From Haloglomus salinum (GTDB lineage Archaea > Halobacteriota > Halobacteria > Halobacteriales > Haloarculaceae), in NCBI RefSeq assembly GCF_024298825.1, contig NZ_CP101153.1, positions 4,092,001-4,156,000 of the forward strand: a stretch of 64,000 nucleotides of DNA, read 5' to 3'. Below are positions 1,430-42,335 of the stretch, one piece after another. The notes beneath the pieces are model-generated. The model saw only the letters and a list, made by a program, of their open reading frames with translations, did not search any database and was not told where the DNA came from. Both the position numbers and the translations under genes were made by a program. How positions within the stretch are numbered: the first letter of the stretch is position 1; each line of letters starts with the position of its first letter.

Positions 1430-1527
1430 ATCCGGACTCGGCGGGCCGGGCGCAAAGACCCTGCCGTTCCCGCCCGCCGGGGCGGCGCCAGCCTTTATCA
1501 GCCGGCTGGCCGCAGTCGGACACGACG

Positions 1528-6886: not shown

Positions 6887-8902
6887 ATGCAGGACCTGGA
6901 TGGGACCATCGGATACGGACGGGGGGAGCCGGACTGGCTCCGCGCAGAACGGGAGTACGACGACGAGGTCATCGGCGACGACACGCTGGGCGAGCTCTTC
7001 GTCGCCAGCGCCCGCCGGAACGGCCGCCGGGACGCACAGTGGTACAAGGGCGGGGTCTACGACCGCACGATGGCCGGTGTCGCCTACCCGGAGGCGCTCG
7101 ACGGCGAGTTCGCCTCGCTCACGTACGCGGATATGCTGGACGTGGTCCAGAACCTCTCGGCCGGCTTCGTCGACATCGGCGTCGAGCACGGCGACCGCGT
7201 CGGGATGTTCGCCAACACGCGGATGGAGTGGGCCCAGTGTGACTTCGCACTGCTGTCGGCCGGCGCGACCGTCACGACGGTCTACACGGAGTCCGAGCCG
7301 CCGCGGGTGCAGTACCTGCTGGGCGACCCCGGTGCGACGGGGGTCGTCTGCGAGAACGCGGAACTGCTGAGCCGGGTCGTCGAGGTGGAGGACGAACTGG
7401 ATGTCGAGTTCGCCGTCGTGATGGACGAGTTCGAGGCGCCGGAGACGGACCTCGACGTGTACTCGCTCGCGGACGTGTACGAGCGCGGGCAGTCCGCCTT
7501 CGACGAGGACGCGTTCGAGGCGCGTCTCGACGCCTGCGAACTCGACGACCTCGCCTCGCTGGTCTACACCTCCGGGACGACCGGCGACCCGAAGGGCGTG
7601 ATGTTGACCCACGGGAACTTCCGCGCGAACGTCAACCAGGTCCGCAAGCGCTTCGGCCCCCGGCCCGACAAGGACGAGGACACGCCGGTCATCGACAGGA
7701 ACACCCGCACGCTCTCCTTCCTGCCGCTGGCGCACGTCTTCGAGCGGCTGGCCGGGCACTTCTCGATGTTCGCGACCGGCGGCACCGTCGCGTACGCCGA
7801 GTCGCCGGACACGGTGGGCGACGACCTGGAGAAGGTCCAGCCCTCGGGCGCGACCAGCGTCCCGCGCGTCTACGAGCGCATCTTCGACCAGATGCGCGAG
7901 CAGGCCTCCGGGTCCGACGTGAAAGAACGCATCTTCCAGTGGTCGCTCGACGTGGCCCGCGACTACGGCCGTATCAAGCGCGACCCCGACGAGGAACCGG
8001 ACCTCGGCCTGCGCGTCAAGCACGCCATCGCCGACAAACTGGTGTACAGCGACGTCCGCGAGGGCGTGGGCGGGCGCATCGACTCGTTCATCTCCGGTGG
8101 CGGCTCGCTCTCGAAGGAACTCGCCCAGATGTTCGACGGGATGGACATCCCCATCAACGAGGGGTACGGGCTGACCGAGACCTCGCCCGTCGTCTCTACG
8201 AACCCGGCCGAGGCGCCCAAGCACGGCACACTGGGCCCGCCGGTCGTGGATTGTGAGGTGACGGTCGACGAGTCGGTCGTCAGCCAGGAGCGCCGCGAGA
8301 ACGCCGACGGGCAGGTGGGCGAACTGCTCGTCCGCGGGCCGAACGTCACGCAGGGCTACTGGAACAAGCCCGAGGCGACCGAGGACGCGTTCACCGAGGC
8401 CGAGGACGGCGGCGACCCGTGGTTCCGGACCGGCGACATCATCACGATCGACGAGGACGGCTACCTCGTCTACACGGACCGGCTGAAGACGCTGGTCGTG
8501 CTGGACACCGGGAAGAACGTCGCTCCACAGCCCATCGAGGACGAGTTCTCCACCTCCGAGCGCGTCGAGCAGGTGATGGTGACCGGCGACGACGAGAAGT
8601 TCATCGGCGCCATCATCGTCCCGAACTTCGAACAGGTGCGCCGCTGGGCCGACAAGCAGGGTATCGACCTCCCCGACGACAGCGAGGGCATCTGCGAGGA
8701 CGACCGCGTCCGCGAGTACATCGAGGAGGAGGTCGACCGCGTCAACGCCGAGTTCCCGAAGCACTCCCGCATCAAGCAGTTCGAACTCGTCCCGGTCGAG
8801 TGGACCGCCGAGAACGACTACCTCACGCCGTCGATGAAGAAGAAACGCCGCGCCATCCGCGACGGCTTCCAGGAGTACATCGACAGCATCTACGAGGACT
8901 GA
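6887..8902 (+). CDS. Long-chain fatty acid-CoA ligase (AMP-forming)
   Basis: This 671-residue protein is a long-chain acyl-CoA synthetase of the ANL superfamily. The AMP-binding P-loop motif Tyr-Thr-Ser-Gly-Thr-Thr-Gly-Asp-Pro-Lys-Gly lies at residues 227-237. The A5-type motif Gly-Tyr-Gly-Leu-Thr-Glu-Thr-Ser-Pro and the hinge region Trp-Phe-Arg-Thr-Gly-Asp follow, with a C-terminal lid containing the conserved Lys-Asn region. It activates fatty acids with ATP and CoA; haloarchaea use such enzymes mainly for fatty acid or carboxylic acid catabolism, since their lipids are isoprenoid. The gene is monocistronic. A T-tract plus hairpin element starts 46 bases after its stop. Confidence 0.92.
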   Translation: MQDLDGTIGYGRGEPDWLRAEREYDDEVIGDDTLGELFVASARRNGRRDAQWYKGGVYDRTMAGVAYPEALDGEFASLTYADMLDVVQNLSAGFVDIGVEHGDRVGMFANTRMEWAQCDFALLSAGATVTTVYTESEPPRVQYLLGDPGATGVVCENAELLSRVVEVEDELDVEFAVVMDEFEAPETDLDVYSLADVYERGQSAFDEDAFEARLDACELDDLASLVYTSGTTGDPKGVMLTHGNFRANVNQVRKRFGPRPDKDEDTPVIDRNTRTLSFLPLAHVFERLAGHFSMFATGGTVAYAESPDTVGDDLEKVQPSGATSVPRVYERIFDQMREQASGSDVKERIFQWSLDVARDYGRIKRDPDEEPDLGLRVKHAIADKLVYSDVREGVGGRIDSFISGGGSLSKELAQMFDGMDIPINEGYGLTETSPVVSTNPAEAPKHGTLGPPVVDCEVTVDESVVSQERRENADGQVGELLVRGPNVTQGYWNKPEATEDAFTEAEDGGDPWFRTGDIITIDEDGYLVYTDRLKTLVVLDTGKNVAPQPIEDEFSTSERVEQVMVTGDDEKFIGAIIVPNFEQVRRWADKQGIDLPDDSEGICEDDRVREYIEEEVDRVNAEFPKHSRIKQFELVPVEWTAENDYLTPSMKKKRRAIRDGFQEYIDSIYED

Positions 8903-9225
8903 GCGGGCGTTTCGGTGGTGAGCTCGGCAACGTCAGCGTGCATAGTCGAGCTTTTTTGACGGCTCGGGTACCGCTTGCCCGGCGGCCCATGGCCGCCGGG
9001 CTGCGGGTACCACTCGCCGCAAAAAACATTCAGAAAAAATGCCTGCCCTCGACTCGGGCCCGACGGCCTCCTGCCGCCAGGACCCTCGTCTCGGGCAGGA
9101 GGAACTCGCTCGCTTCGCTCGCGAGTATGCACCAGCACAGACCGGCTGCCCGGATTCATTTCGAATGGATTGGTGGTGGAACCCAATTGTAACTACACGC
9201 CCTACAGTCACAGAACCAGCCCGTT
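8903..9225. other. Intergenic region with hairpins between acyl-CoA ligase and bat-type regulator
   Basis: The two flanking genes converge on this 323-base stretch. It holds a T-tract and hairpin element (8948-9040) followed by several shorter GC-rich inverted repeats, such as the Gctcgcttcgctcgcgag-type palindrome near 9107-9124. Short open frames cross it on both strands but none has coding character or a promoter. I see no gene here. Confidence 0.6.
8948..9040 (+). terminator. Structured 3' element, copy A (T-tract, hairpin, A-rich tail)
   Basis: The order is GAGCTTTTTT, a short spacer, CTCGGGT, a long hairpin (8966-9011, arms starting GGTACC and closing GGTACC with a GC-rich inner stem), then ACCACTCG, a CAAAAAAC run, and TTCA followed by A's. 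The T-tract could act as the archaeal termination signal for the acyl-CoA ligase. The same order with a different stem occurs after the FKBP gene and the KaiC-like gene, which suggests a related family of elements rather than a chance terminator. Confidence 0.6.
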
Positions 9226-35672: not shown

Positions 35673-36095
35673 CCGAAGTCCCCGCGACAGCCCGACGCAT
35701 TGCGCCAGGGCTGTGAGAAGGGTGACCGAGGCATGGATGAGAAGCACTGTATTACGGTCATAATCAACCATCTGACTACATTCAGCCCCTATTCAGAATA
35801 TATTCGATAAAACCAGGCCTTCGGATGGAAATGGGACGTTAACGGAGACGGGCGCGCCGCTCCGTGACACAGACAACAGACGCCGCTCCGTGACACGTAT
35901 ACCAGTTCTCGCATCCGCGCGAGCAGGGCGGGACTCCGTCCCGCTTGCAGTCGGACGTAGTCCGACGACGAAGCGAGCGCGGTTCACCGCCACGGAGGTC
36001 GCCGAAGGCGACCGGAGTGGCGGCTTTTTTGGTGCAGATTTTTTGGCCGAGTGGTTCCGCGCCTCCGGCGCAGAACCCGAACCGGAAAAAGCTCC
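35673..36095. other. Intergenic region between converging genes, rich in palindromes
   Basis: The left third is AT-rich with no clear feature. From 35855 the same 16-base run CGCCGCTCCGTGACAC occurs twice, 27 bases apart. From 35925 to 36023 follow three nearly perfect inverted repeats with three-base loops (near 35928-35950, 35948-35972 and 35986-36023), and then the structured 3' element of the KaiC-like gene. An open frame (35890-36099) crosses the whole array but looks like a by-product of the palindromes. Confidence 0.5.
36023..36094 (-). terminator. Structured 3' element, copy C (minus strand)
   Basis: Read on the minus strand, the order is GAGCTTTTT, spacer, TTCGGGTT, a hairpin (complement of 36053-36077, arms GGTTC-GCGCC and GGCGC-GAACC), ACCACTCGG, a CAAAAAA run, and a second A-run. 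It begins one base after the stop codon of the KaiC-like ATPase. The flanks match the elements downstream of the acyl-CoA ligase and FKBP genes, while the stem sequence differs. Confidence 0.6.
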
Positions 36096-36995
36096 CTAGA
36101 AGATATTCGCCTGCTGGTACACCGAGATGCCGTCGCTGGTGATCTCGTAGGGCTTGGTCTCGCGGGAGTGGTTGGCGTTCCGGATCTTCTGGATCTCGAC
36201 GGCCAGGCGGGTCTCTCGGAACTCCGAGCGGACGTACTGGAGGACGAACACGCCGTCGGTGAGGTACTCGATGATGCCGTGGCGTGAGGCGTAGGGGTTG
36301 TTCTGGTCGGCCTCGGAGGTAACCATCGTCGTGACGCCGGCGCTCTTGAGCGCCTTGGTGAAGTCGAACACCTCCGTCCGGCGGTCGGGCTGGTTGTCGT
36401 ACATCATCTCGAGCAGTGAGACCGAGTCCAGCACCAGCCGTTCGGCCTCGAACTCGTCGATGAGCCGGGGCAGGTCGCTCCGGATGGAGGCCAGCGAGTT
36501 GGCCATCTCGACCGGGTCGAGGTCGATGATAGCGAGCTGGTCGTTCTCGAGGTACTCGTCGAACCCCCAGCCCTTCTCGGTTGCCGCCTCGACGATGGCC
36601 TCGCGGGACTCCTCGAGGGTGATGTAGACGGTGCGCTCGCCCTCCTCGAGGCCCTTCTGGAGGAACTGGAGGCCGAACGTCGTCTTCCCGGTCCCGGCCG
36701 AGCCGATGACGACCAGTAGCGACCGCTCCGGGACGCCACCCTGGATCATGTCGTCGAGGCCGGTGATTCCGAGGTCGATCCGCGGGATGTCGGACTCGAA
36801 CTCCTCGTCGAAGCCCGAGGAGCCGCCCCCCTCGAACGCCGAGGCGAAGTCCTCCTCGAACAGTTCGTCGCCCTCACCCCCTGGAGGACCACCACCCATC
36901 CCGCCGCCGCCAGCATCCGGGGCACCGCCCTCGCCGAAGGAGGCGTCCTCGTCGAGTCCGCTCTCGAACCAGTCGTCGTCCCCCTCGTCGCTCAC
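36096..36995 (-). CDS. KaiC-like RecA-superfamily ATPase
   Basis: A 299-residue single-domain KaiC/RAD55 ATPase. The N-terminus (about 65 residues) is Gly- and Asp/Glu-rich and likely disordered. Walker A Gly-Ser-Ala-Gly-Thr-Gly-Lys-Thr-Thr is at 98-106 and a Walker B Leu-Val-Leu-Asp-Ser strand near 190. Relatives act in signalling and clock-like switches; the archaeal role is not fixed. GTG 36995 is the start. It is divergent from NAD kinase. A structured 3' element begins directly after its stop. Confidence 0.85.
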   Translation of the reverse strand: MSDEGDDDWFESGLDEDASFGEGGAPDAGGGGMGGGPPGGEGDELFEEDFASAFEGGGSSGFDEEFESDIPRIDLGITGLDDMIQGGVPERSLLVVIGSAGTGKTTFGLQFLQKGLEEGERTVYITLEESREAIVEAATEKGWGFDEYLENDQLAIIDLDPVEMANSLASIRSDLPRLIDEFEAERLVLDSVSLLEMMYDNQPDRRTEVFDFTKALKSAGVTTMVTSEADQNNPYASRHGIIEYLTDGVFVLQYVRSEFRETRLAVEIQKIRNANHSRETKPYEITSDGISVYQQANIF

Positions 36996-37181
36996 GGCCC
37001 CACCTCTCCGTCAGCGCGATCGTTCATGCGGTCGGGTTGGATGTGGTAACTGATTAACTTTGCCCGCCCAGCGGCCAGCGGGCCTCGGACTCGACCGCCA
37101 CCGAGAGCCGCGTCCCGACGACCACCGGCCGCCGGGTCGCTCCCGCGGGGTTCTTGACGGCGGGGGGCGAACGCCCGGCCG

Positions 37182-38006
37182 ATGCATCTCGGCATCGTGG
37201 CGCAGCGCGACAACCCCCGGGCCGTAGAGCTGGCAGAGCGCATCCGGGGTGCGGTTCCGGAGGCGCGCATCGCGCTCGACGAGACGACTGCCGAGGCCGT
37301 CGAAGAGCCCGACATCGGCGTGCCGGTCGACCGGATGTCGGCCTGCGACCTCGTCGTGAGTATCGGCGGCGACGGGACCTTCCTGTTCGCGGCTCGCGGC
37401 GCCGACACGACGCCGATGATGGGCGTCAATCTCGGCGAGGTCGGCTTCCTCAACGCCGTTCCACCCGAGGAGGCTGTCGATGCCGTGCGGGGTGTGGTCT
37501 CCGAGATTCGTGGGCGGGGCGAGCCGTCCGTCTACGAACTCCCCCGCGTCGTCGCCGAGAACGACGACTGGGCGCTCTCGCCGGCACTCAACGAGATCGC
37601 GGTGATGGGTCCCCAGCGAGGCCGGGCGAACGGTATCGGCCTCGAGATCCGGGTCGATGGGTCACTGTACGCCGGGAGCCGGGCCGACGGCGCCCTCGTC
37701 GCCACGCCCGCCGGAAGTACGGCGTACAACCTCAGCGAGGACGGCCCGCTGGTCCATCCGGGGACCGACGCGCTCGTCCTGACGGAGATGTGTGCGCGCT
37801 CGCCGATGCCGTCGCTGGTACTGGGGCCCGGCAGCGACGTGACGATCAGGGTCGAGGAGGCCGACCACGCCATCGTCGTTGCCGACGGGCGGCGCTCCGA
37901 GGAGGTGACGCCACCCACGCAGATCGCCGTGCGTCGCGCCGACGAGCCGCTCCGGGTCGCGGGGCCGCCGCTGGATTTCTTCGCCGCGCTGGGCAAGCTG
38001 GACTGA
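37182..38006 (+). CDS. nadK: NAD kinase
   Basis: The 274-residue enzyme phosphorylates NAD to NADP. The hallmark Gly-Gly-Asp-Gly-Thr is at residues 62-66, followed by Gly-Val-Asn-Leu-Gly-Glu-Val-Gly-Phe-Leu and the Thr-Pro-Ala-Gly-Ser-Thr-Ala-Tyr motif. The full length is normal for archaeal NadK. It stands alone and is read away from the KaiC-like gene. Confidence 0.93.
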   Translation: MHLGIVAQRDNPRAVELAERIRGAVPEARIALDETTAEAVEEPDIGVPVDRMSACDLVVSIGGDGTFLFAARGADTTPMMGVNLGEVGFLNAVPPEEAVDAVRGVVSEIRGRGEPSVYELPRVVAENDDWALSPALNEIAVMGPQRGRANGIGLEIRVDGSLYAGSRADGALVATPAGSTAYNLSEDGPLVHPGTDALVLTEMCARSPMPSLVLGPGSDVTIRVEEADHAIVVADGRRSEEVTPPTQIAVRRADEPLRVAGPPLDFFAALGKLD

Positions 38007-38102
38007 CGCGCCGTTCAGCCCGTGGAAACCACCGGACGGTATCGAGATAGCCAGTCTCCGGTGTCGTAAGTGCTAACAGCGTCGCGGCCCTCCTTCGGCG
38101 TA

Positions 38103-39038
38103 ATGAGTGAGCAACTCCCGGACGTGCAGGCCTCGCGTCCGGAGGTGAGCGTCGGCCTGAACCGGGTGGGTGTGACGGGTGTCGAGAAGCTCGTCAAACT
38201 CGACCGCGACGAGCGCCGGCCCATCGTCCTGATGGCGGAGTTCGAGGTGTACGTCGACCTTCCGAAGTGGCGCAAGGGCATCGACATGAGCCGGAACATG
38301 GAGGTCGTCGACGAGATCATCGAGGAGGCGCTGGAAGACCGGCACGTCCGGATCGAGGACCTCTGTGGCGACGTGGCCGAGCGCCTGCTCGACAAGCACG
38401 ACTACACCTCCCGCGCAGAGGTGACCATGGACGCCGAGTACGTCCAGCGCGAGGAGACCCCCGAGAGCGACCGCCCGACGCAGTTCACCGCCGACATCCA
38501 CGCCTCCGCCACCGCCAACGGCGGCGGCACCCACGAGGAGGTCGGCACTACGGTGACGGGGATGACGGTCTGTCCCTGCTCACAGGGGATGAGCGAGGCC
38601 CGCGCCCGCGAGACGCTCGCGGACCTCGGCGTCGAGGACGAGGTCGTCGAGTCGTTCCTCGACGAGGTGCCCCAGCCGGGCCACTCCCAGCGCGGGCACG
38701 CCACGCTGAAGGTCCGGAGCAAGGGCTCGCCGGACGTCGACCTCGAGGACCTCATCGACGTGGCCCGTGACTCGATGTCCGCACGCATCTACAACATGGC
38801 CAAGCGCCCGGACGAGGACCACATGACGTACCACTCGCACGCGAACGCGAAGTTCGTCGAGGACTGCGTGCGCTCGCTCGCCGAGGGAACCGTCGAGCGC
38901 TTCGATCTCCCCGACGACGCCATCGTGACGATGAAGCAGTCCAACGACGAGTCCATCCACCAGCACAACGCCCACGCAGAACGCGTCGCCGAGTTCGGGC
39001 AGCTGAAGGACGAGCTGAACGGGAGTCTGGACGACTGA
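38103..39038 (+). CDS. mptA: GTP cyclohydrolase MptA (type IB family)
   Basis: The 311-residue enzyme belongs to the GTP cyclohydrolase IB/MptA group, which makes the first pterin intermediate for the archaeal tetrahydrofolate or tetrahydromethanopterin route. Family marks are the early [11 protein letters not shown], the core Thr-Val-Cys-Pro-Cys-Ser-Gln-Gly-Met with paired cysteines near the metal site, and the late Glu-Ser-Ile-His-Gln-His-Asn-Ala-His. ATG 38103 gives the family N-terminus. It converges on the SAM synthetase gene with a 30-base gap. Confidence 0.92.
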
Positions 39039-39068
39039 ATCGTCCCCTTTCCTGCAAGAGCGACGACC

Positions 39069-40274
39069 CTAGAACGTCGTCAGCTCGCCCGCGATGACGC
39101 GCTCGGTGATGCTCGTCACGTCGGCGAGTTCGCGGTCGATGATGCGGCTCACCTCGTCCTCGATATCACCGACGGAGACGCCGTCCTCGGTGACGAGCGA
39201 TGCGTCGGCCACGTGGGGGTCGTCGATGGGCTCGCCGATCTGGCTGAGCAGGCGGATGCGGATCTCCCGGATGCCGTCCACCTCGGCGACGACGCTCTCG
39301 GCGATCTGGGTCGAGAGGAGGTTGTAGATCTTGCCGATGTGGTTGACGGGGTTCTTCCCGGAGGTGGCCTCCATGCTCATCGAGCGGTTCGGGGTGATGA
39401 GACCGTTGGCGCGGTTGCCACGGCCGACGGAACCGTCGTCGCCCTGCTCGGCCGAGGTACCGGTCGTGGTGAGGTAGATGGAGCCCTCGTCGTAGTCGTC
39501 GGCGGTGTTGACGTGGACGCGGACCTCGCGGTCGGTGATGTCGGCGGCGAGGTCGCTGACGAACTCGCGGATGCCGGCGACGGCGTCGTCGTAGTCGTCG
39601 TAGCCCTCGACGTAGCTGTCGATGATGGCGACCGCGACCGTCACGTCGATGTGGTCGCCCTCACGCTTGCCCATCACCTTGATGTCGGGGCCGACGACGG
39701 GGTGCTCGTCGGCGTAGTGGCCGTTGAGCTGGCGCTCGGTCTCCAGCACGACCTGCTCGGTCTCGGTGAGCGGCGCGTGGCCCACGCCGAACGAGGTGTC
39801 GTTGGCCATCGGAATCCGTCGCCCTTCGTCGTCGAAGACGTCCTGCAGGTCGCCGCTCCCTTCGCCCAGCTTGATGTCGACGACGACGTCCGTCCCGAAG
39901 TCCAGTTCGGGGAAGTTCTCGGCGAGGTACTCGCGGGCAGCCCGGAGCGCGATGGTCTCGGCGGGGATCCGCTGGCCGTCGTACTTCTTCGTGGCGCGGC
40001 CGGTGATGAGGAGATAGATCGGTTCCAGCACCTCGCCACCACCGAAGGTCGGCGCCGCGCTTCCGGCCACGAGCTGCGTCTCGTCGGTGTTGTAGTGGAG
40101 AACCTCACCGAACCGCTCGAGATAGGTCCGTGCCAGCGCTTTCGAGACGGCCTCGGCGATCCCGTCACAGATGGAGTCGGGATGGCCGAGCCCCTTCCGT
40201 TCGACGATCTCCACCTCCTGGTCCTCGACTGCACGGCCCACGACGGGCTCTACGCGGATGTTCCGGTCGGTCAT
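39069..40274 (-). CDS. mat: Archaeal S-adenosylmethionine synthetase
   Basis: The 401-residue protein is the archaeal-type MAT, which makes S-adenosylmethionine from methionine and ATP. It has [13 protein letters not shown] near the N-terminus and [14 protein letters not shown] in the middle. I prefer ATG 40274 over the in-frame ATG at 40301: the TTATAT box (complement of 40300-40306) overlaps the upstream ATG and lies about 29 bases before 40274, which gives the usual Met-Thr-Asp-Arg-Asn-Ile start. Confidence 0.93.
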
Positions 40275-40364
40275 TACCAGCAGTTTCGCTGGCGCGGACA
40301 TATAACCTACGGAAACACCAGCATCAGAATTAATAACTGGGGTGCATAAACCGAGCCGCGACCG

Positions 40365-40964
40365 CTATCCGTCGGCGAGCAGCAGGCCGAGATACGACGT
40401 GCGTATCTGCTCGCCCGGGTCGAGCCCGAGGTCAGCCATCACGGCGATGGCCCCCTCACGGGCCGCTTCGACGGCCTCGGCCTCGGCCTCGGCCTCGACC
40501 TCGACGAACTCGCCCAGTCCGTCGACCCGGTCCAGCGTCACCGTGTACCCCTCGTACCGGAAGAATCGGCGGTGCTTCTCGACGGTGGCCGCCGGCTCGA
40601 AGCCCAGCCCCGAGAGGATAGCCATCGCCTCGTCGTCGTCCAGCACCTCGGTCTCGTGTTCCCGGCGGGTCTTCGACTCGGCCTCGACGAGCGGGCCCTT
40701 GTAGGTGAGCTTCGTCACCGTCTCCCCGTCCACGTCGGGCACGGCGCCCCCGCCGCCCTCGTCGCGCTCACCGCCCGCTCCGCCCTCGGCCGGCCGCTCC
40801 CGCCGGAGCCGCAGGGCTTCGTCGGTGCTGGCGAAGTCGCGGTGGGGGGCGTCGTAGTAGGTATCGACCTGCGTGACGCCACCGGCGTCCGTCGCCTCCA
40901 CCTCGGCCAGTCGCTCCCGGACTCGGTCGTGGTCGGCCCGGACCTTGAGTTCGACCTCGTACAT
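40365..40964 (-). CDS. cyaB: CYTH-domain (class IV adenylate cyclase-like) protein
   Basis: The 199-residue protein has the CYTH signature: Glu-Val-Glu-Leu-Lys-Val-Arg at the start (the ExExK motif), Tyr-Tyr-Asp-Ala-Pro, then Leu-Arg-Leu-Arg-Arg-Glu-Arg. Lys-Leu-Thr-Tyr-Lys-Gly-Pro and the late Glu-Val-Glu-Ala-Glu follow. An insertion rich in Gly and Glu interrupts the first half. CYTH proteins bind triphosphates and include adenylate cyclase IV and thiamine or inorganic triphosphatases; the archaeal substrate is open. It is divergent from the FKBP gene. Confidence 0.85.
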   Translation of the reverse strand: MYEVELKVRADHDRVRERLAEVEATDAGGVTQVDTYYDAPHRDFASTDEALRLRRERPAEGGAGGERDEGGGGAVPDVDGETVTKLTYKGPLVEAESKTRREHETEVLDDDEAMAILSGLGFEPAATVEKHRRFFRYEGYTVTLDRVDGLGEFVEVEAEAEAEAVEAAREGAIAVMADLGLDPGEQIRTSYLGLLLADG

Positions 40965-41082
40965 GGGCGCTGGGAGGCGGCGCGGTGGCAAAAACACCCG
41001 GATGCGACCGCCCCGGTCGCGGAAATGCGGTTTGTAGGCCCGAAACGTGACCGTTAAGGATGCGTCGGGAGTCGGTCGTGCT

Positions 41083-42078
41083 ATGAGCGAGGAATCCGAC
41101 GAGGACGTCGAAGAGACAGAAGCGGAGACCGAAGAGGAAGTAGCCGAGCCGGAAGCCGAGTCGGAGGCCGACGAGGAGGAGCCCGAGGGACTCCAGGACG
41201 GGGACTTCGTCCGCATCGACTACACCGCGCGCACGGTCGAGGGCGACCAGCTGGTCGACACCACCGACCCCGAGGTCGCCGAGGAGGAGGGCGTCGCCGA
41301 CCAGGGCACCTTCGAGCCCCGCGTCATCGTGCTCGGCGCCGGCCACCTGTTCGAGTCGGTCGAGGACGACATCATCGGCGGTGAGGCCGGTGACTCCGGG
41401 ACCGTGACCATCCCCGCCGAGGAAGCTTTCGGCGAGTACGACGAGGAGCGCGTCCGCACCGTCTCGGCCGACAAGATCGACGAGGACGACCGCTACCCCG
41501 GCGCCCGCGTCCAGATCGACGGCGAACAGGGCGTCCTCGAGACCATCGTCGGCGGCCGGGCCCGGGTCGACTTCAACCACCCGCTCGCGGGCGAGGAGAT
41601 CGAGTACGACTACGAGATTCTCGAGGAGGTCACCGACCAGCTCGAGCGGGCACAGGGCCTGTTCGGCATGTTCCTCGATATGGAGCTGGAGATGCACCTC
41701 GAGACCGACGAGGTCGAGGAGACCCACGTCGAGGAGCCCGACGAGGACGACGAGGACGCAGAGCCCGAGACGGTCACGGAGACCGTCGAGAAGCTCACCC
41801 TCTACGTCGAGTCCAACCCGCAGCTCTCGATGAACCAGCAGTGGATGATGCAGAAGACCCAGATCGCCCAGGAGATCATCGAGAAGACGGGCATCGACCG
41901 CATCATCGTCCAGGACATCCTCGACGGTTCCGGCGGCATGATGGGCGGCATGGGCGGCATGATGGGCGGCATGGGCGGCGGCGCCCCCGGCGGCGAGGAC
42001 GTCGACGAGGCCGACATCGAGGCCGCGCTGGAGGAAGCGGACATCGACGCCGACGAGATCGCCGAAGAGATCGAATAG
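41083..42078 (+). CDS. Long FKBP-type peptidyl-prolyl isomerase with GGM tail
   Basis: The 331-residue protein starts with an acidic stretch (about 45 residues) and an SlyD-like FKBP domain (about 47-185) containing Phe-Val-Arg-Ile-Asp-Tyr-Thr-Ala and the inserted-flap region. A helical domain follows, then a Gly-Met repeat tail (about 286-303, Gly-Gly-Met-Met-Gly-Gly-Met type) before an acidic C-terminus. It is an isomerase and probably a chaperone. The Gly-Gly-Met tail recalls the C-termini of chaperonins. ATG 41083 was chosen; a GTTAAGG box lies about 30 bases before it. A structured 3' element starts at its stop codon. Confidence 0.85.
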   Translation: MSEESDEDVEETEAETEEEVAEPEAESEADEEEPEGLQDGDFVRIDYTARTVEGDQLVDTTDPEVAEEEGVADQGTFEPRVIVLGAGHLFESVEDDIIGGEAGDSGTVTIPAEEAFGEYDEERVRTVSADKIDEDDRYPGARVQIDGEQGVLETIVGGRARVDFNHPLAGEEIEYDYEILEEVTDQLERAQGLFGMFLDMELEMHLETDEVEETHVEEPDEDDEDAEPETVTETVEKLTLYVESNPQLSMNQQWMMQKTQIAQEIIEKTGIDRIIVQDILDGSGGMMGGMGGMMGGMGGGAPGGEDVDEADIEAALEEADIDADEIAEEIE

Positions 42079-42140
42079 AGCTTTTTTCCGACTCGGGTGG
42101 CCTTCGGCCACCACTCGTCACAAGAAACGTTCACAAAAAG
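42078..42140 (+). terminator. Structured 3' element, copy B
   Basis: The order is GAGCTTTTTT, CCGA, CTCGGG, a perfect 7-bp hairpin GGTGGCC-TTC-GGCCACC (42096-42112), ACTCGTCACAAGAAACGTTC and an A-run. The GAG overlaps the TAG stop codon of the FKBP gene. The flanks match the elements near 8948 and 36094 while the stem is a different sequence. A further palindrome (around 42158-42180, ggcgcgcc repeat) follows. Confidence 0.6.
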
Positions 42141-42335
42141 GCCGCGCCTCGCGACGCTCGGCGCGCCGCAGGCGCGCCGATGCTACATACGGTTTCTGCG
42201 TCACCGAGCCAAGCCTGTTGTCTGCATCACCGAGCGAATCTCATCCTCAAAACCACTCAGCAAGATTCGCTATTCCTGTCAAACCTATATCTGCGGAACA
42301 TACAGAACGAACCACAAATGGCATATATTGGAGTA

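Follow-up and report, generated by a model that had tools for sequence, protein, structure and literature searches.

Among haloarchaeal repeats already described, the PATEs of Haloquadratum (PMC3119063) come closest to the element reported here. In Haloferax volcanii, the T5C motif terminates 95% of transcripts, and hairpins lie upstream of many transcript 3' ends in Haloferax (PMC7237163). How transcripts end in archaea is still thinly understood. Here we describe a defined palindromic DNA element with dozens of copies in most haloarchaea, located mostly at gene 3' ends, whose paired T-run and A-run, judging from its sequence, most likely stop transcription from both sides. We found no description of it in the libraries or literature searched. 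At the curated Rfam scores, the window (the whole stretch analysed, 64,000 nucleotides of Haloglomus salinum contig NZ_CP101153.1) returned only a tRNA, and the element regions gave no credible match.

Three copies of a multi-hairpin element in one window

A first-pass annotation of the window had noticed a shared order of blocks, with a hairpin whose stems differ, after three unrelated genes. This order was confirmed by searching for GAGCTTTTT-N0-12-TCGGGT, which occurs three times, exactly at those places, whereas 100 dinucleotide shuffles gave no occurrence. In the whole genome, AGCTTTTTN{0,12}TCGGG was found 17 times and its reversed control not once, and the A-tract block was found in about 20 distinct copies. 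The 3' block ACCACTCG-N-AAAA is exact at two of the three window sites; in the copy next to the FKBP isomerase gene it reads ...ACCACTCGTCACAAGAAA. A chance match of the three hairpins is excluded by the shuffles, the reversed control and the covariation described below.

The core of the element is a single long hairpin, composed of a P0 stem, a run of five or six Ts, a P1 stem, a UC-type internal loop, a variable hairpin (H1) and the mirror arms with a run of five or six As. All copies follow the same order, which is P0 arm, C or CC, T5-6, one or two bases, P1 (4 bp), TC, G, GGT and H1 in the 5' half, and ACC, N, CTC, P1', C, A5-6, two bases, P0', two or three bases, A5, GG/TG CC, H3, GTGAA(A)C, H4 and GG(T)ATGC in the 3' half. 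The element is longer than the first-pass annotation described: two further hairpins follow the second A-run before the (T)ATGC end. Similarly, the flanks that had been described as conserved are so, but they also pair with each other: the T-run with the A-run, and the four bases past the T-run (P1) with the four before the A-run. The 3' tails co-vary with the 5' flank from genus to genus.

Copy A lies between the genes for an AMP-binding acyl-CoA ligase (+) and an HTH_10 regulator (-), and its core reads GAG-C-T6-GA-CGGC-TCGGG-H1-ACC-A-CTC-GCCG-C-A6-CA-TTCAG-A6-T. Copy B, which follows the gene of a KaiC-domain protein, is of hybrid make-up. Its P1 is weak (two G-C pairs plus a wobble) and its P0 arms are unpaired; its 5' half is of the Haloglomus type and its 3' tail, TCTGCACC, resembles those of other genera. 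Copy C stands between the genes for an FKBP isomerase and a homoserine kinase, and its outer P1 pair is a C.A mismatch. A position directly downstream of all three genes had been claimed. This holds for the FKBP gene, at its stop codon, and for the KaiC-like gene (1-2 nt past the stop), but not for the acyl-CoA ligase gene, whose stop codon ends at 8902, about 45 nt before the copy (Table 1).

Table 1. Window coordinates of the element copies, their parts and the inverted segment
Feature	Coordinates	Strand	Basis
Copy A core	8948..9040	+	R1 84.4 bits, E 3e-16; R2 (without Haloglomus) E 6.5e-7
Copy A sense T-tract, pairing with A-tract 9021-9026	8952..8957	+	Sequence; RNAalifold pairs
Copy A P1 5' arm CGGC, pairing with GCCG 9016-9019	8960..8963	+	Sequence, RNAalifold, covariation
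Copy A two A-tracts (minus-strand T-tracts), CATTCAG between	9021..9039	+	Sequence
Copy A downstream hairpins H3 (~9043-9099) and H4 (9104-9126), end ATGC 9127-9130	9041..9130	+	Other copies in same order
Copy B core, 3' of KaiC-like ATPase (-)	36025..36094	-	R1 E 1.6e-7; R2 E 3e-5
Copy B downstream hairpins H3 and H4, nested insert, end GGATGC	35911..36024	-	Sequence L024; end coordinate hand-counted
Copy C core, begins at FKBP isomerase (+) stop codon, opposite homoserine kinase (-)	42078..42140	+	R1 E 7.9e-11; R2 E 1.1e-6
Copy C downstream hairpin region, end GATGC	42141..42183	+	Sequence, L025
6-kb segment with KaiC and FKBP genes, inverted in sister species G002	36086..42098	.	94.7% identity over 6014 bp, reverse orientation

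In Haloglomus copies, nested two-hairpin modules may be accommodated in H1 and in the 3' arm. One such module, GTCGTGGAATCGC..GCGATTCCACGGGCAATCAGAACGC..GCGTTCTGATGACG, sits in the P1 3' arm at eight loci (L012, L016, L019, L020, L189, L191, L193 and L207), its loop tips occurring in both orientations (GCTTCGC with GCGAAGC; GCTCCGC with GCGGAGC). The module GTGGAATCGC...GCGTTCTGAT was considered as an independent mobile unit and rejected, as all four of its exact copies in the genome of the window sit within elements. The 5' block also occurs in partial tandem copies, such as a direct repeat of AGCTTTTTCACGCCTCGG or AGCTTCTTCACCGCG ahead of AGCTTTTTTGACGGC (L015 and L016 near 1480-1500, reverse strand; L183; L201; L204).

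Distribution among haloarchaea

We searched with two covariance models, one built from 27 Haloglomus sequences (R1) and one built without Haloglomus, from other genera only (R2). The first found 30, 33, 39 and 15 copies in four Haloglomus genomes, and matched 132 of 146 genomes in the family, with all 22 genera represented, and 138 of 243 in the order Halobacteriales. In a phylum sample of 247 genomes it matched 16, all of them Halobacteriales, and none beyond the order. The second recovered all three window copies (Table 1). Such a search of haloarchaeal genomes had been proposed in the first-pass annotation; R2 matched 250 of 293 Halobacteriales genomes and 76 of 88 genera, with copy numbers that are lower bounds, since in many genomes nearly all 15 scored candidates match. 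These order-wide matches rule out a repeat confined to one genus, which had been the reading of an exact-pattern scan. Carriers include Halovenus salina and a putative Haloglomus halophilum (NZ_CP101166, G002), and copies were found on plasmids of Halovenus, Natrinema and Natronobeatus.

Position relative to genes

Genes were called by a simple script using GC at codon positions, so that individual cases may be wrong. A same-strand gene lies upstream of 60 of the 65 Haloglomus copies. As anticipated in the first-pass annotation, most lie just past stop codons, with a same-strand stop -11 to +20 nt from AGCTTTTT in 57 of the 65 (mode 0-5 nt). Of the 124 copies in other genera, 83 have a same-strand gene upstream, at a median distance of 2 nt, and 110 face at least one gene end (55 on both sides, 28 on the sense side only and 27 on the antisense side only). 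Ten appear to lie between divergent genes and four have no called upstream gene. Codirectional cases are thus evenly split by orientation (28 vs 27).

Gaps that contain the element are convergent in 45 cases, codirectional in 45 and divergent in 8, against 21, 92 and 43 for gaps without it at the same loci. Convergent gaps are therefore enriched (46% vs 13%, Fisher p 2e-8) and divergent ones depleted (8% vs 28%, p 2e-4). A T5 tract no more than 30 nt past the stop codon was present in 64 of the 77 genes whose 3' end is within 40 nt of an element, compared with 23 of 382 other genes at the same loci.

Inheritance, proposed exchange of stems and an inversion

In 19 groups of related upstream genes the element keeps its place, and 18 of these groups are common to at least two species. 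Orthologous copies differ in their stems, with compensation, as in P1 CCTGC/GCAGC vs CCGAC/GTCGC 3' of the same gene (L009 and L174). In the sister species G002, the segment carrying the KaiC and FKBP genes is inverted between collinear flanks. Both ends of the inversion fall within copies B and C, which point in opposite directions. Recombination between copies would explain both the exchange of stems and this inversion. The element is absent at the acyl-CoA ligase orthologues of three sister species (G001, G002 and G003). Past the acyl-CoA ligase stop codon (window 8902-8950), the first 40-odd bases are near-identical in G002, followed by divergence.

These patterns bear on the possibility that the element is a selfish mobile palindromic repeat, REPIN-like or PATE-like, once moved by a transposase acting on single-stranded hairpins, with its gene-end site tolerated or useful and only secondary. 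We regard this as rather unlikely. It would account for the flank words specific to each genus and the nested two-hairpin modules common to copies in one genome, for the copy 3' of the acyl-CoA ligase gene that the three sister species lack, and for the plasmid copies. However, retention at the same place in 18 orthologous groups argues against it, and a distance of 0-5 nt from the stop codon would not be expected from random insertion. The P0 words are variable and have no common GTAG or CGTC tag; the words at the foot of the hairpin include GTA, CCA, CGA, GAA, GGA and GCA. A transposon end was likewise rejected, as 30 TnpB loci (96 kb) gave one match below E 1e-3 (L442) and one at 0.025, and so was a virus-borne element: 80 viral stretches gave no match, and pattern matches in viral contigs are attributable to chance.

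Covariation with little wobble pairing

The first-pass annotation had claimed that the stems differ and yet compensate, and the alignments bear this out for a structural family. The four bases that end the 5' arm form a perfect match with their own partner in 38 of 59 Haloglomus copies, whereas swapping partners gave a mean of 13 and a maximum of 22 (2000 swaps). From the alignment alone, RNAalifold recovered the T:A stem, P1 and the base of H1, and covariation was 0.324, compared with 0.097 after shuffling and at most 0.08 after sliding. The P0 stem, seen only in other genera, is unpaired in the model that found the copies and was unfiltered; its pairing is perfect in 111 of 123 copies, vs 21 with arms swapped (largest 38), and in 65 of 77 vs 12 after removing repeats. 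In alignment A2 (70 sequences from other genera, preselected for at least three of four P1 pairs), 99.5% of cells are paired, with 192 double changes and a covariation of 0.390 vs 0.084 shuffled; in A3 (119 matches including Haloglomus, fitted to the model), 97.1% are paired, with 334 double changes and 0.411 vs 0.097 shuffled. Sliding again gave values no higher than 0.08.

Covarying RNA helices normally pass through G.U pairs. In A3, G.U occupies 22 of 1975 cells and A.C 14, alongside the 334 double changes, and single mismatches in longer stems are 34 G.T vs 40 A.C (p 0.56). As G.U is nearly absent and no commoner than A.C, the pairing seems to be held on both strands. Watson-Crick pairing kept in this way would be harder to reconcile with an RNA of one strand than with a DNA hairpin or a two-way element, although, given the kinship of the copies, this is suggestive and not decisive. 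In the sense strand, the internal loops TC/CTC and TC/TGC (A1 and A2, columns 17-18 and their partners) correspond to tandem G.A mismatches (CGAG motifs) in the antisense strand, a stable arrangement.

A single-strand RNA element at the 3' end, as first proposed, is not supported. Such an RNA in the 3' UTR of the sense transcript, shielding mRNA ends or binding a protein, seems improbable to us, even though its internal loops are conserved, the downstream hairpins of copy A fold strongly in the sense direction (z -4.7) and many copies have a fixed T.G wobble near the H1 base. Folding is stronger on the antisense strand (z -6.4), G.U is scarcely used, and genes of either strand are served, codirectional cases being equally often in reverse orientation. 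Moreover, the T-tract is 5' of the structure and should end the RNA, so that the sense mRNA may stop before most of the structure is made. Still less probable, in our judgement, is a purely DNA-level site, namely a cruciform or hairpin at convergent ends, where supercoils from two sides meet, to which a chromosome-organising or recombination protein binds: near-pure Watson-Crick covariation, the same on either strand, the enrichment between convergent genes and an inversion with each end within a copy are consistent with it, but alone it leaves the fixed T/A tracts and the T5C preference unexplained, and the inversion is a single event for which ordinary repeat recombination suffices.

Discussion

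We lean, by a modest preference, towards a repetitive palindromic terminator cassette of haloarchaea that acts in both directions and whose copies swap stems through recombination. On the sense side, RNA polymerase would be freed almost at the gene end by the T5-6 tract at or just past the stop codon, which often reads T5C. In the opposite direction, the transcript of a convergent gene would form H4 and H3 and then reach one or two T-tracts, which are the A-runs of the other strand. A single element may thereby end transcription both ways and keep convergent neighbours from colliding. The Watson-Crick palindrome would be kept either because function is needed on both strands or because the DNA itself has to form an extruded hairpin, and stems would be exchanged between copies by recombination.

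Two features in particular lead us to interpret the element as a terminator acting both ways. A C follows the sense tract (T5C) in 72 of 124 copies and faces another C in 58 of them, so that the pair is lost, suggesting that the termination-like base was retained where pairing was possible; on the antisense strand, H3 ends directly before the T-run. Among the roles first proposed, ending transcripts is the one best supported, as far as sequence can tell. Against a terminator, about one third of the 124 copies in other genera lack a same-strand gene upstream, and ten appear to lie between divergent genes. Read from the antisense side, only 51 of the 124 have a C after the first T-run encountered, and 112 have a G after the other T-run. 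In addition, a T-tract alone terminates transcription in archaea, and termination thus leaves the covariation of the long stems unexplained. More tentatively, and with doubt as to the whole, the element may represent an order-wide gene-end DNA palindrome that combines Watson-Crick pairing on both strands, two-way termination from one paired T/A tract and continual rebuilding by recombination among dozens of copies, hence inversions.

The T-tract, P0, P1, H1 and H3 can be tested separately. If confirmed, two-way termination would allow genome-wide terminator annotation across the whole order, provide ready-made two-way terminators for haloarchaeal genetics and explain some genome inversions.

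Among known systems, the PATEs are likewise short and non-coding, occur in haloarchaea, contain palindromes and often carry nested inserts, but their ends are common to IS605-type transposons (PMC3119063), which is not so for our element at the TnpB loci tested. REP, BIME and REPIN sequences with RAYT transposases (PMC3733652) are also repetitive extragenic palindromes near gene ends, whereas the element is much longer, has several hairpins, is tied to stop codons and is retained at orthologous sites. Its antisense strand, with the GC-rich H3 directly before a T-run (T5), resembles a bacterial intrinsic or bidirectional terminator, but the sense order is reversed (T-run, hairpin, A-run) and much of the non-stem sequence is conserved across an order. 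As in the archaeal T-tract terminators (T5C of Haloferax volcanii, PMC7237163; U-tract with aCPSF1, PMC8716108), T5-6 lies close past the stop codon, often followed by C, but in our element the tract forms one side of a palindrome that is conserved and covaries, and the other arm supplies T-tracts to the opposite strand.
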